From Exiguobacterium sp. s122 (GTDB lineage Bacteria > Bacillota > Bacilli > Exiguobacteriales > Exiguobacteriaceae), in NCBI RefSeq assembly GCF_018618475.1, contig NZ_JACSMD010000001.1, positions 1,922,001-1,986,000 of the forward strand: a stretch of 64,000 bases of DNA, in the 5' to 3' direction. Of this stretch, positions 13,971 to 63,849 are shown piece by piece (position 1 is the stretch's first letter; each line of letters begins with the position of its first letter). The notes beneath the pieces were generated by a model, which saw only the letters and a list, made by a program, of their open reading frames with translations, ran no database searches and was not told where the DNA came from. A program made the translations under genes and the position numbers.

Positions 13971-15242
13971 TTACGCTTCAAAAAGCAATTGCTCTGGATC
14001 TTCAATCATGTCTTTAATGTGTTTAAGGAACGTCACGGCCTCACGACCGTCGACGATGCGGTGGTCATACGAGAGCGCCACGTACATCATTGGGCGGTTC
14101 TCCATCGTGTCCGCATCGATTGCGATCGGACGGAGTTGAATCGAGTGCATCCCAAGGATCGCGACTTGCGGTCCGTTTAAAATCGGTGTCGACAAGAGCG
14201 AACCGAACACGCCGCCGTTCGTGATCGTGAACGTGCCACCCGTGAGGTCGCTAAGCCCGAGTTTGTTGTTGCGGGCCTTGTCGGCGAGGTGAAGGATGTC
14301 CTTCTCAATCTCACCAAAGTTTTTGCGGTCTGCTTCGCGCACGACCGGCACAACGAGTCCGTCTGGTGCCGACACGGCGATGCCGATATCGTAGTACTTC
14401 TTCAAGACGATCTCGTTGCCTTGAATCTCTGCGTTCAAGTAAGGCATCCGTTTAAGGGCCGCAACAGCCGCTTTCGTGAAGAATGACATAAAGCCGAGTT
14501 TGACGTCATTGTCTTTGACGAACTTCTCTTGACGACGTTTGCGGAGCGCCATAACGGCTGACATGTCGATTTCGTTGAACGTCGTGAGCATCGCAGCCGT
14601 CTGTTGCACTTCGACGAGGCGGTTCGCGATCGTCTGACGACGGCGCGTCATCTTGATGCGTTCTTCTTCCTTCCCGCTCGCTGCCGGTTGCGGTGTTGCA
14701 GCCGGTGCTTTCGGTGCCTCTTGTTTCGGTGCTGGTGCCGTGTTATGGCTCGTCACATCGTGGACGTTGATACGACCCATCGGATCGTTCGTTTGAATCG
14801 CCGCAAGGTCAATTCCTTTCTCACGGGCAAGCTTACGCGCTGCCGGTGTGGCGATTGGTCCTTTACCCGGGCTCGCGACGTGCTCTTCGCGACGCTCAAC
14901 TTTTTTCGCTTCCTCGAGCGTTTCGACTTTCGGCTCAGCCGGAGCTGGTGCCGTTTCGGCCGGTGCTTCCGTCTTTGTCTTCGTCGCGACAGCCGTGCCG
15001 CCGCCTGATCCCGAACCGAGACGGGCGATGACTTGTCCGACTTGGACCGTGTCACCTTCGCCGGCGAGTTGCTCTTCTAGCACACCCGATTCATCGGCTG
15101 GTACCTCGATGTTGACTTTGTCTGTCTCGAGTTCGACGATGGCTTCCCCTTTTTCGACTTGGTCACCTGGCTGTTTGAGCCATGAAGCAACCGTTCCTTC
15201 CGTAATGGACTCTGCTAACTCCGGTACTTTGATTTCGATCAC
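13971..15242 (-). CDS. odhB: 2-oxoglutarate dehydrogenase E2 (dihydrolipoamide succinyltransferase)
   Basis: A 423-residue E2 subunit. It has a lipoyl domain (residues 1-75, lipoylated K42 in ETDKVN), an Ala/Pro-rich linker, a peripheral-subunit-binding domain (about 125-165), a second linker, and the catalytic domain with YDHRIVDGREA near residue 393. It transfers succinyl groups to CoA in the TCA cycle. It starts with GTG, 6 nt after a TAAGGGGGAAC SD region. That SD region is perfectly complementary over 11 nt to a loop of the candidate sRNA at 62.65-62.98 kb. It lies 18 nt after odhA. Confidence 0.95.
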   Translation of the reverse strand: MIEIKVPELAESITEGTVASWLKQPGDQVEKGEAIVELETDKVNIEVPADESGVLEEQLAGEGDTVQVGQVIARLGSGSGGGTAVATKTKTEAPAETAPAPAEPKVETLEEAKKVERREEHVASPGKGPIATPAARKLAREKGIDLAAIQTNDPMGRINVHDVTSHNTAPAPKQEAPKAPAATPQPAASGKEEERIKMTRRRQTIANRLVEVQQTAAMLTTFNEIDMSAVMALRKRRQEKFVKDNDVKLGFMSFFTKAAVAALKRMPYLNAEIQGNEIVLKKYYDIGIAVSAPDGLVVPVVREADRKNFGEIEKDILHLADKARNNKLGLSDLTGGTFTITNGGVFGSLLSTPILNGPQVAILGMHSIQLRPIAIDADTMENRPMMYVALSYDHRIVDGREAVTFLKHIKDMIEDPEQLLFEA

Positions 15243-61122: not shown

Positions 61123-62589
61123 ATGAAACAAATTGCCATCATCGGGGCCGGTCTCGGTGGCCTGAGCGCCGCTGTCACCCTTGCTTCACGCGGTTACGAC
61201 GTGACCGTCATCGAAAAAAATGATCACGTCGGCGGAAAGCTCATGCCCGTCATCACCGACGGCCATCGGTTTGATTTTGGTCCAAACACGATCACCATGC
61301 CGGACGTGTTCCGATCCGTTATCCGCAATAGCGGAGCGAACCCGGAAGATTACTTTGAACTCGTCAAACTCGATTTGCATACGGTCAACCACTTTACCGA
61401 CGGCTCGACGTTCACGTTCCGTTCCGGGCGCGAGCAGATGGAAGAGGAGGTTCGACGCTTGACGGGTAGCAAGGCCGATCAAAATCAGCTCGCCGACTAT
61501 TTGGATGAGGCGGAAAAATTATTTGAAATCGCGAACAAACGGTTCTTTACCCGAATGGAGACGAAAATGGACACCGGGCTATGGGCCGATATGATGAAAG
61601 TCCACCCGCTTACGAGTCTGCATTCGCTTCATAAGAAGTACTTCAAAGACCCACGTATCATTCAAGCGCTCGACCGCTACGCGACGTATATCGGGAGTAG
61701 CCCGTACGTCACACCGGGCACGTTCGCGCTCATCTCCCACCTGGAGTTGAACGATGGGGTGTATTATGCAAAAGGTGGAAACTGGACAATCGCAAAAGGC
61801 TTCGCCAAACGGGCAAGTGAACTGGGCGTCAAGTTCAAACTCGGCCAAGAAGTGACGAAGATTGAAGTGATGAACGGCAAAGCCCATGCCGTCATCATCG
61901 ACGACGAAGAAGTATTGTCGTGTGATGCCGTCTTATTGAATGGGGAATTGCTCACGCAATATCCACGTCTCGTCGATGCGGTCAACCGTCCCTCGTTCCC
62001 AGTCCCGACACGCGATACGGTCGAACCGTCCGTCTCGGCATTCGTCATGATGGTCGGGTTGAATAAACGCTTGAACCTCGCCCACCACAACGTCTACTTC
62101 TCTGACGACTATGAGGCCGAGTTCCGGGCGTTGTTCGACGAAGAGCGTTATGCGGACGAGCCGACGATTTACATCTCAAACTCGTCCCATACGGATCCTG
62201 CAATGGGTGAGACCGGGGACAACTTGTTCATCCTCGTCAACGCCCCGGCCCATTTGACCGACATTGATGCTGAAACGTATGAACATTTGATCCGTCGCCG
62301 ACTCCGTAAATTCGGAGTCGAGTGGGACGACGCCGACGTCGTCTATCACCATCGCGTCACCCCGCACGATTTGACGCGTGACTTTTATGCGTATTACGGC
62401 GCTTTATATGGCACATCCGCTAACTCGAAGAAAGGTGCTTTCTTCCGCCCGTCAGCCCGATCAGAAGACGTCTCCAACATTTGGTTTGCGGGCGGGTCGA
62501 CCCATCCGGGCGGTGGCAGTCCGATGGTCACGCTTTCAGGACAGCTAGCCGCTCGGTCGATGTTAGAGGACATACCTCTGACAATTTGA
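61123..62589 (+). CDS. Carotenoid desaturase/oxidase (CrtN/CrtP family)
   Basis: A 488-residue FAD amine oxidase-type enzyme. The dinucleotide fold IIGAGLGGLSAAVTLASRG opens the protein (residues 5-23), and the C-terminal GGSTHPGGGSPMVTLSGQLAA (FAD contact) closes it. It belongs to the phytoene desaturase group. CrtN (diapophytoene desaturase) and CrtP/CrtNb (oxidase) look alike; because a second copy lies at 63818, one is probably desaturase and the other oxidase. AGGAGG precedes the ATG at 61123 (AGGAGGCACATTGCC). It is the last gene of the rightward unit. Confidence 0.86.
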   Translation: MKQIAIIGAGLGGLSAAVTLASRGYDVTVIEKNDHVGGKLMPVITDGHRFDFGPNTITMPDVFRSVIRNSGANPEDYFELVKLDLHTVNHFTDGSTFTFRSGREQMEEEVRRLTGSKADQNQLADYLDEAEKLFEIANKRFFTRMETKMDTGLWADMMKVHPLTSLHSLHKKYFKDPRIIQALDRYATYIGSSPYVTPGTFALISHLELNDGVYYAKGGNWTIAKGFAKRASELGVKFKLGQEVTKIEVMNGKAHAVIIDDEEVLSCDAVLLNGELLTQYPRLVDAVNRPSFPVPTRDTVEPSVSAFVMMVGLNKRLNLAHHNVYFSDDYEAEFRALFDEERYADEPTIYISNSSHTDPAMGETGDNLFILVNAPAHLTDIDAETYEHLIRRRLRKFGVEWDDADVVYHHRVTPHDLTRDFYAYYGALYGTSANSKKGAFFRPSARSEDVSNIWFAGGSTHPGGGSPMVTLSGQLAARSMLEDIPLTI

Positions 62590-62616
62590 ACATTTTGTGA
62601 ACAGAAGATTCGACAC

Positions 62617-62645
62617 TTGTCGACAAGTCTGAGACGTGATAATAT
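62617..62645 (+). promoter_or_regulatory. Candidate promoter of the C-loop RNA
   Basis: TTGTCG (62617-62622), 17 nt, TAATAT (62640-62645), with an extended -10 TGA directly before it. The -35 lies in the perfect 14-nt palindrome ACTTGTCGACAAGT (62615-62628), which could be an operator. A transcript would begin near 62652. Confidence 0.45.
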
Positions 62646-62651
62646 CATATT

Positions 62652-62977
62652 CGAGTTCAAGCAGTATTGTAACGTTTGTTACACCTGTAGCGATCGAATG
62701 GCTTCCCCGAGCCAATCGCGTTTTGAACTTGTCACACCCGAGAAAAATGATGAGCGAGTTTCCCCACTCGTATGCCGTAGCTGGATCAGCATGCATCTGA
62801 TGTTCCCCCTTAGTCCATCAAGCATCCTGTTTCAGCGAAGATGCCCCATCGTTTCATTCCCCATGAGACGAGGCACATCTTTAGGCGTTCATCACAAGCC
62901 GATTCGTTCGTTTCCCCGACGAACGAATCACATAACGCTTACACCACTTTTGGTCCCCCGCCAAAAGTGGTTTTTTT
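62652..62977 (+). ncRNA. Candidate small RNA with seven C-run hairpin loops
   Basis: About 326 nt between the desaturase gene and crtM, ending in a strong terminator. Hairpins with C-runs in the loop: 62690-62719 (loop TCCCCG), 62755-62770 (TTCCCC), 62798-62820 (loop TTCCCCCTTAGTC), around 62840-62850 (weak stem, GCCCC), 62850-62870 (8-bp stem, TCCCC), 62901-62929 (10-12-bp stem, TCCCC) and the terminator 62944-62970 (TCCCCCG). A hairpin TGTAAC-4-GTTACA (62668-62683) lies near the 5' end. C-rich loops are the hallmark of sRNAs that pair with SD sequences (RsaE/RoxS, LhrC, RNAIII). The plus strand is favoured because only that strand has a T-run after the last stem. No coding ORF explains the region. 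I know no family matching it. Confidence 0.55.
62944..62977 (+). terminator. Terminator of the carotenoid unit / candidate sRNA
   Basis: Perfect 10-bp stem CCACTTTTGG / CCAAAAGTGG with a TCCCCCG loop and seven T. The long distance (354 nt) from the desaturase stop suggests it belongs to a separate RNA. Confidence 0.9.
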
Positions 62978-62983
62978 ATGCGC

Positions 62984-63012
62984 AAAAAAACGACCGCTTC
63001 CGCGGCCGTTCA
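62984..63012 (-). terminator. Terminator of crtM
   Basis: On the minus strand, AACGGCCGC / GCGGTCGTT stem with a 4-nt loop, followed by seven T. Confidence 0.85.
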
Positions 63013-63849
63013 CAATCGTGCTAATAGTTTTCCCTTTTGGAACGTCGAGACGTAGGCTCGCTTCGTGAACACGTCATATGCGTTCCCCCGCGCCGCGTCC
63101 AAAATGCCTTCATAGAGAAGGGCCGCCGCCTGTACTGGCTTCCGGCTCGCCGGTGGGTAGAGGTGATGGGGTTCGCGCGCCCGGGTATACAAGAATTCAG
63201 CTCGACGGGCGAGCGTCTCCCAGACATCCTTGAACGCAGGGGTCACTTGTCGTGCGAACAAGTCCGCCTCCGATACACCGAACTCAGCGAGTAGCGTTTG
63301 CGGGAGATAAATCCGGTCCCGGTTCAAGTCTTCGCCGACGTCACGCAAGATGTTCGTCAACTGCATGGCGATGCCAAGGTCGATTGCTCCTTGCTTAAGG
63401 GTCGCCTTCTCCGACGCATCCGGCTCTGGTACGAGAATCGGCAAGAGCATCAAACCGACCGTGCTCGCAGCATAATAGCTATACTGTTCCGTTTCTTCAA
63501 GCGTCGCATACCGCGACTTATGTAAATCCCACTTCATCCCTTCGGCCAACTCAAAGAAAGGCGCGACATCCATGTCGTAGCGATTCCATACATCTCGAAG
63601 CGCGACCCAAAGCGCCCCTTCGACGTATTCGTTTGCCAAAAAGCGATTAAAATCATGCAAAAATTCCGTCAGGCTCGCTTCAGGCCGGTCGGATTCATCG
63701 ACGGCATCGTCAAGCAGACGGCAAAACGTGTAGACTGCCATCACCGCCTGACGGTCCGGTTTGGAGAGCAGAGAGAAGGCCCGATAAAATGTCAACGAGC
63801 CTTTCTTCATGATTTCCTCACATTGACGATACGCTTCTTGTGTCGTCAT
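63010..63849 (-). CDS. crtM: Squalene/phytoene synthase family, diapophytoene synthase
   Basis: A 279-residue enzyme with both Asp-rich substrate motifs: DDAVDE (residues 46-51) and NILRDVGEDLNRDRIYLP near residue 165. It condenses two farnesyl diphosphates (C30 route, CrtM) or geranylgeranyl diphosphates (C40, CrtB); the Bacillales context favours C30. Its start overlaps the truncated upstream desaturase by 32 nt, so they are co-transcribed. The SD GGAGG lies 7 nt before the ATG. Confidence 0.9.
   Translation of the reverse strand: MTTQEAYRQCEEIMKKGSLTFYRAFSLLSKPDRQAVMAVYTFCRLLDDAVDESDRPEASLTEFLHDFNRFLANEYVEGALWVALRDVWNRYDMDVAPFFELAEGMKWDLHKSRYATLEETEQYSYYAASTVGLMLLPILVPEPDASEKATLKQGAIDLGIAMQLTNILRDVGEDLNRDRIYLPQTLLAEFGVSEADLFARQVTPAFKDVWETLARRAEFLYTRAREPHHLYPPASRKPVQAAALLYEGILDAARGNAYDVFTKRAYVSTFQKGKLLARL

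Follow-up and report, generated by a model that had tools for sequence, protein, structure and literature searches.

A conserved multi-hairpin RNA with C-rich loops at the carotenoid locus of Exiguobacterium: a putative anti-Shine-Dalgarno small RNA that looks like a larger companion of RoxS

Locus and predicted structure

What is the RNA that could be transcribed from the gap between two convergent carotenoid genes of Exiguobacterium, and why would one RNA carry so many equivalent seeds? The window, by which we mean the whole 64,000-nucleotide stretch of an Exiguobacterium genome that was analyzed (G000:C1:1922001-1986000), holds this folded RNA, hereafter the C-loop RNA, at positions 62652-62977 of the + strand (about 326 nt). 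A sequence-only reading of the same DNA had placed it between convergent carotenoid units, in agreement with the genes that flank it. Comparisons were made across 38 genomes, 19 from the genus of the window (its own genome included; own genus) and 19 from a sister genus. A coding RNA was rejected, as no open reading frame of at least 10 amino acids had a start common to at least 15 of the 19 own-genus orthologues. The locus comprises:

Stop at 62589, + strand: CrtI-family desaturase, upstream neighbor of the C-loop RNA
62652-62977, + strand: C-loop RNA, from fold, conservation and covariation, its 5' end placed from the promoter
63010-63849, - strand: squalene/phytoene synthase, downstream neighbor of the C-loop RNA

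The + strand of the C-loop RNA has a minimum free energy of -117.9 kcal/mol, compared to -70.0 ± 4.4 kcal/mol in 100 shuffles (z = -10.9), and the - strand of the region likewise folds well (z = -6.2). Seven runs of at least four C occur in the RNA, six of them inside hairpin loops (62705-62708, 62762-62765, 62805-62809, 62859-62862, 62914-62917 and 62955-62959). The sequence-only reading had counted seven CCCC loops, and six of these stand as hairpin loops, but only half of the seventh run (62844-62847), which falls in an internal loop, is unpaired, with unpaired probabilities of 0.97, 0.96, 0.04 and 0.05, so that the count was one too high. Two stems singled out earlier, at 62850-62870 and 62901-62929, are present in the predicted fold. 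The UCCC motifs lie in accessible loops, where the Cs have an unpaired probability of at least 0.95 in all six, except for the first C of the third loop (0.33). One further hairpin has the apical loop GUUU and no C-loop. The predicted elements are as follows:

62652-62731, + strand: 5' domain, a closing helix around two hairpins, with the same layout in the sister genus
62699-62714, + strand: hairpin with loop CCCC (62705-62708), CUUCCCCGAG kept in both genera
62754-62771, + strand: hairpin with loop UUCCCC (62760-62765), from the fold
62798-62820, + strand: hairpin with GUUCCCCCUUAG (62802-62813), invariant in 38/38 genomes, the predicted Shine-Dalgarno-pairing loop
62849-62871, + strand: hairpin with loop UCCCC (62858-62862) on a covarying stem
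62901-62929, + strand: hairpin with loop UCCCC (62913-62917) on a covarying 12-bp stem, wholly different in the sister genus
62943-62977, + strand: intrinsic terminator with loop CCCCC (62955-62959) and U run, from scan and fold

The six CCCC hairpin loops compare with zero to three in 400 dinucleotide shuffles (none in 212, one in 148, two in 36 and three in 4). When 782 segments of 326 nt from both strands of the 64 kb were folded, two had at least three CCCC hairpin loops, and both overlap the C-loop RNA locus. By fold energy and by loop count, the structure is genuine and far exceeds chance expectation.

Covariation, loop constancy and strand

Covariation in related genomes had been named as a check on the structure, and the stems do covary within each genus. 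In the own-genus alignment (19 distinct rows, 103 pairs), 99.5% of cells were paired and 9 pairs changed on both sides, compared to 4.5 ± 0.9 in shuffles (reached in 0 of 500), and in the sister-genus alignment (16 distinct of 19 rows, 72 pairs) 99.0% of cells were paired and 14 pairs changed on both sides, compared to 7.8 ± 1.4 (0 of 500), in a test that favors both structures because they were derived from the same alignments. The number of further pair types was not raised in the sister genus, where 429 of 500 shuffles reached it. A combined alignment of the two genera (647 columns) was too gapped for use, and they were compared by inspection.

C-bearing hairpin-loop columns were invariant in 31 of 32 cases in the own genus and 34 of 36 in the sister genus, compared to 170 of 206 and 103 of 144 paired columns, respectively. 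The C-runs also stay in loops, with at least six C-bearing hairpin loops in the minimum-energy folds of all 38 genomes. The sister genus has seven C-bearing loops, five with CCCC and two with only CCC (AUUGACCC and ACCCA); small exceptions are a UCCCU loop at one own-genus locus (L014) and loss of the ACCCA loop at one sister-genus locus (L052). From one genus to the other, the outer 5' helix is retained and a single pair changes in the first C-hairpin. Most of the second, fourth, fifth and terminator stems has a different sequence (e.g., GAUUCGUUCGU/ACGAACGAAUC compared to CUGAGAC/GUCUCAG), while CUUCCCCGAG and GUUCCCCCUUAG are unchanged. Two of the three refuting conditions named in the sequence-only reading, a lack of covariation and C-runs that leave the loops in related genomes, were put to the test, and the RNA withstood both.

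Among variable pairs, G.U cells outnumber A.C cells by 113 to 4 in the own genus and 45 to 4 in the sister genus. Since an RNA from the - strand would show the reverse, and promoter and terminator both lie on the + strand (see below), the RNA strand is the + strand, and we are all but certain that the C-loop RNA is a real structured RNA of that strand. GGGGA loops, as a CsrA sponge would display, occur on the - strand only, with none in the loops of the favored + strand, and a CsrA sponge transcribed from the - strand was rejected on the same G.U/A.C counts, promoter and terminator. A broader alternative is that the C-loops bind a protein, such as a cold-shock or other C-binding protein, and that the C-loop RNA is a CsrB-like sponge. 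CsrB-type sponges repeat a near-identical loop motif on different stems, and the C-loop RNA shares this repetition and its multivalence. However, a classical GGA-loop CsrA sponge would have to be read from the - strand, which the G.U/A.C test opposes, and the flanks of single loops are individually conserved (in GUUCCCCCUUAG and CUUCCCCGAG), which suggests base-pairing over a single shared protein motif. We therefore regard protein binding as an improbable explanation of the loops, and base-pairing as the better one.

Distribution in the family and beyond

The C-loop RNA was found by DNA search in 19/19 own-genus genomes (87-100% identity, one match each, E values up to 0.001), with the closest relative among the compared genomes, G009, at 98% identity over the RNA. 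All 19 also have a similar upstream flank of 110 nt, in which the desaturase gene ends. A homologous RNA lies at the same place in 19/19 sister-genus genomes, where it was found via the phytoene synthase loci. BLAST with the C-loop RNA does not reach the sister genus, save for short weak matches in one genome (G033; best E = 0.005); matches in 17 sister-genus genomes (E = 0.24 to 0.88) were set aside as chance-like, and two of these loci, when read, appeared to fall at a transporter gene.

A covariance model, R1, built from the own genus alone, scored 19/19 sister-genus RNAs (E = 3e-15 to 2e-5). Of the control loci, none of eight RoxS loci matched, and one of nine other loci gave a 22-nt match at E = 4.2. 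Across the order (38 whole genomes, all of this family), R1 recovered 30, comprising 19/19 of the own genus and 11/19 of the sister genus. Across the class it matched 23 of 398 genomes, all of this family, and nothing outside it, at a low sensitivity (4/19 sister-genus genomes recovered in that mode) that leaves room for diverged relatives elsewhere. A pattern around the third loop was present in 24 stretches among 84,980 species, all of them Exiguobacterium. The C-loop RNA is an uncatalogued RNA family present in 38/38 genomes, in which loop letters are kept while several stems are altered or replaced, a natural experiment on what C-rich seeds need.

Promoter and terminator

Both signals noted in the sequence-only reading, an extended -10 promoter-like sequence upstream and a strong terminator at the end, were recovered, and at the level of sequence the C-loop RNA has its own promoter and intrinsic terminator. 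The terminator has a 12-bp stem (62943-62971) followed by a U run and ends the C-loop RNA. Upstream lie:

62586-62600, + strand: TTGAACATTTTGTGA, a putative activator site (half-site distance 10 bp) that overlaps the upstream gene's stop codon
62617-62645, + strand: promoter with -35 TTGTCG, 17-nt spacer and extended -10 TGATAATAT, elements kept in 19/19 genomes of each genus

The upstream motif is kept as TTGAACATTTTGTGA in 19/19 own-genus genomes and as TGTGAAnnTTATGTGAA in 19/19 sister-genus genomes. The letters of the promoter spacer vary among genomes, and in five sequences measured the distance from motif to -35 was 16 nt and the spacer 17 nt. The scan also lists an overlapping alternative promoter three bases downstream (62620-62648; TCGACA/TATCAT), and we prefer the one at 62617-62645 because it is kept in the sister genus too. 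Over 1.6 kb, the scan gave three promoter-like and four terminator-like sites, compared to 1.2 and 1.5 in shuffles, so that the scan by itself proves little. At 62980-63010, an inverted repeat with a T run on the - strand, seen by eye, adjoins the terminator of the C-loop RNA and apparently ends the phytoene synthase gene; it is absent from the scan's list of terminators.

The C-loop RNA starts about 60 nt past the CrtI-family gene, the scan shows no terminator on the + strand in that interval, and its last hairpin is a terminator, which it probably shares with the carotenoid operon. The hairpins might therefore be no more than the end of that operon, its 3' untranslated region with the terminator, serving insulation or RNA stability, with no role in trans. 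Against this stands a separate promoter kept in 19/19 genomes of each genus. The C-loops are also more conserved than the paired columns, and several stems have been replaced around kept loops between the genera; where loop letters are fixed while stems change, stability alone is an insufficient explanation. We consider a purely 3' untranslated role unlikely, and favor a C-loop RNA of about 326 nt that would be made from a promoter of its own, immediately after the carotenoid operon.

A promoter motif shared with RoxS and cydA

A search of the own genome for GTGAACATTWTGTGA with at most one mismatch gave three places: RoxS, cydA (cytochrome bd oxidase subunit I) and the C-loop RNA. The motif lies 17 nt from the -35 in RoxS, 16 nt in the C-loop RNA and 17 nt from a possible -35 in cydA, a likeness to RoxS, and a link to it and to cydA, that the sequence-only reading had missed. 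With two mismatches there were 12 sites in the own genome, compared to seven for the mirror pattern, and the looser KTGAACRTTWTGTGA with one mismatch gave six sites; looser patterns give so many sites that only the best are meaningful. None of the six two-mismatch sites read in the own genome was assigned to respiratory genes. Over the family, the search for the upstream motif gave at least 282 matches, compared to at least 36 mirror matches (summed). Nine further sites were read in three genomes, eight without an evident respiratory gene downstream and one upstream of cydA, and at least three of the nine lie inside or across the coding frames of other genes. The cydA of a sister-genus genome (G061) also carries the motif; the sister-genus RoxS promoters have a different arrangement, in which the shared motif does not occur in the same form.

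Direct repeats such as the upstream motif would suit an OmpR-type factor such as ResD, whose box is TTTGTGAAT; no paper combining ResD and TTTGTGAAT was found in a literature library composed mostly of nonsubscription journals. The motif is unlike the inverted repeat TTGTGAAW4TTCACAA given for Rex in PMC2883068. In Bacillus subtilis, RoxS is under the positive control of ResDE and the negative control of Rex (PMC4409812, PMC5419742). We lean slightly toward a regulator common to the C-loop RNA, RoxS and cydA, and that it might be a ResD-like factor is a guess. The shared promoter element suggests that the C-loop RNA would be made under respiratory or redox stress, alongside RoxS. If so, one respiratory promoter element apparently serves two different C-rich small RNAs (sRNAs), which makes a testable case.

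Loop pairing and candidate targets

At the level of sequence, the UCCCC seeds of the C-loop RNA are complementary to Shine-Dalgarno sequences. Pairing was scored over 450 sampled genes of the own genome and 374 of a second genome, with starts called by a simple script. GGGG occurs at -20 to -4 of 98/450 own-genome genes, compared to 2.3% of 17-nt stretches in the window, and with about a fifth of genes carrying it near their start, some loop matches are to be expected. The exact 12-nt complement of the GUUCCCCCUUAG loop, CTAAGGGGGAAC, has 59 copies in 38 genomes, 38 of which are the C-loop RNA itself, and every one of the other 21 immediately precedes an ATG or GTG start codon. The mirror pattern, itself Shine-Dalgarno-like, has 36 copies in the 38 genomes, so that abundance shows no sign of selection for pairing. 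The anti-Shine-Dalgarno role proposed from the sequence alone nevertheless gains support from loops that fit GGGG-type Shine-Dalgarno sequences and from the position of all 21 exact complements before starts. We consider it likely that the C-loops act by base-pairing at Shine-Dalgarno sequences.

G-rich regions of RosA and RsaI bind RoxS/RsaE, as described in PMC8216469 and PMC9217828, and by analogy the C-loop RNA might sponge G-rich sRNAs of this kind instead of mRNAs. As every exact non-self complement of one loop (21/21) is found at a translation start, we hold this to be very unlikely, and mRNAs are the preferred partners.

Fifteen of the 21 non-self CTAAGGGGGAAC copies lie in one operon, bkd, in 15/19 sister-genus genomes, a link noticed post hoc, after the pattern search. 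The gene that follows differs by clade, being a 2-oxo-acid dehydrogenase E2 gene (bkdB) in nine genomes and a leucine-dehydrogenase-like gene (bcd) in six. The name bkd rests on gene order and on an NCBIfam match of the first gene to phosphate butyryltransferase; the other two were unnamed above NCBIfam cut-offs. In the own genome, three of seven bkd genes passed the 5% background level (-16.0), namely ptb (-17.9), a dihydrolipoyl-dehydrogenase-like gene (-17.2) and an E1 gene (-16.4). The second candidate lies in the window:

13971-15242, - strand: odhB (2-oxoglutarate dehydrogenase E2), NCBIfam sucB above cut-off

This gene has a GTG start behind TTAAGGGGGAAC, and its pairing score (-20.6) is the second of the 450 own-genome genes sampled. 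By inspection, its Shine-Dalgarno sequence can form 12 contiguous pairs with GUUCCCCCUUAG, one of them G.U. That sequence is identical in the 15 own-genus genomes examined (the own genome and 14 of the other 18), a conservation that may have other causes because it closely follows the stop of the upstream gene. odhB was not found in six sister-genus stretches examined. For B. subtilis, PMC8216469 tabulates proteins that change without the RoxS sponge RosA, and there OdhB and OdhA bear the mark RoxS. The best-supported candidate targets would be odhB and the bkd operon, both concerned with 2-oxo-acid oxidation, although we propose them as real targets only tentatively, at somewhat less than even confidence.

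Overall, the C-loop RNA is probably a trans-acting multi-loop anti-Shine-Dalgarno sRNA with its own promoter, in which six hairpins would present UCCCC-type loops to Shine-Dalgarno sequences of the GGGG type and, by pairing with them, block translation. We speculate further, as a doubtful extension, that at least six C-loops could form a multivalent comb able to hold several mRNAs simultaneously. Induced together with RoxS and cytochrome bd oxidase, it would, on respiratory failure, shut down odhB, bkd and other messages with GGGG Shine-Dalgarno sequences together. Were this true, the RoxS regulon would have acquired, in Exiguobacterium only, a second and larger arm in the form of the C-loop RNA.

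Relation to known RNAs

That no known family came to mind in the sequence-only reading fits the comparison with Rfam, in which 4227 families searched over 62000-63600 gave no match for the C-loop RNA; three matches up to E = 10 were unrelated and far below gathering scores. The CcsR/cuckoo RNAs of Alphaproteobacteria likewise have anti-Shine-Dalgarno hairpin loops, but belong to another phylum, have the loop CCUCCUCCC and usually carry only one or two loops. FsrA and CsfG, presumably included in the Rfam library used, lie at loci that differ from that of the C-loop RNA and gave no Rfam match to it. RNAIII presents several UCCC hairpins on one long RNA and also encodes a peptide, in contrast to the C-loop RNA, which has no shared open reading frame in the own genus and no match to RNAIII in Rfam.

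In Staphylococcus aureus, the UCCC seed motifs of RNAIII block Shine-Dalgarno sequences (PMC9217828), and for B. subtilis, FsrA and CsfG are described as sRNAs with C-rich regions, like those of the C-loop RNA (PMC8216469). In Listeria, LhrC carries three UCCC sites that are redundant, as any of them can bind the G-rich region at the start of lapB, and two of the three sit in loops (PMC4132741); its arrangement of five copies with three sites each differs from one long RNA with at least six C-loops. As UCCC/UCCCC motifs that bind Shine-Dalgarno sequences are reported in PMC4132741 and PMC9217828 for RsaE, RNAIII, SprD, FsrA and LhrC, the mechanism class is known. Among the matches listed, no report of the C-loop RNA was found in the Exiguobacterium literature, which is weak evidence of absence with subscription journals mostly outside the library; in the accessible part of a cold RNA-seq paper on Exiguobacterium antarcticum, mentions of ncRNA concern filtered reads (PMC4247613). 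Our best reading, from sequence, is that the C-loop RNA may be a new family of a known mechanistic kind, a redox-linked multi-loop anti-Shine-Dalgarno sRNA. What would be unusual is the presence of at least six equivalent loops in one RNA, a distribution confined to one family among the genomes tested, and the promoter motif in common with RoxS.

RoxS as a separate RNA

RoxS/RsaE (RF01820) is the closest comparison, with C-rich UCCCC seeds aimed at Shine-Dalgarno sequences, an intrinsic terminator and, in the own genome, the promoter motif described above. RoxS is about 115 nt long, and the RoxS loci as cut here span 139-145 nt. RoxS has a TCA-cycle target in sucC (PMC4409812), to which the candidate odhB would be a likeness. 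An RF01820 search of the 38 genomes gave 0/38 over the cut-off and weaker matches in 23/38, and among the matches listed none lies at the C-loop RNA locus. The own-genome match is:

G000:C1:1741089-1741224, - strand: RoxS/RsaE-like RNA (locus L059), RF01820, 36.2 bits compared to a gathering score of 79

This RNA lies downstream of pepF and beside a gene read as yjbH; the context in B. subtilis is yizD-yjbH (PMC3574147). Place and 5' sequence at L059 fit RoxS, and the Rfam model misses the RoxS of this family. A RoxS-like RNA was read in the own genome and in two others of the own genus (G009, G010), and by eye at the same place in 19/19 sister-genus genomes. Both RNAs co-occur wherever examined.

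With the same seed type and a promoter motif common to both in the own genome, the C-loop RNA could be taken simply for the RsaE/RoxS orthologue of this family. That idea was rejected, since a separate RoxS-like RNA is found at pepF-yjbH in the own genome and the sister genus and the C-loop RNA has no RF01820 match; co-occurrence already refutes it, and we give it almost no credence. The C-loop RNA lies at the carotenoid locus and not beside yjbH. RoxS is shorter and located at yizD-yjbH or pepF-yjbH, whereas the C-loop RNA, found only in this bacterial family, has about 326 nt and at least six C-loops and coexists with RoxS, of which it looks like a larger companion, judged by its sequence features. 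By eye, the sister-genus RoxS RNAs (L136-L154, downstream of pepF) are shorter and lack two extra C-loop hairpins seen in three own-genus sequences, so that RoxS, like the C-loop RNA, may have gained and lost such loops.
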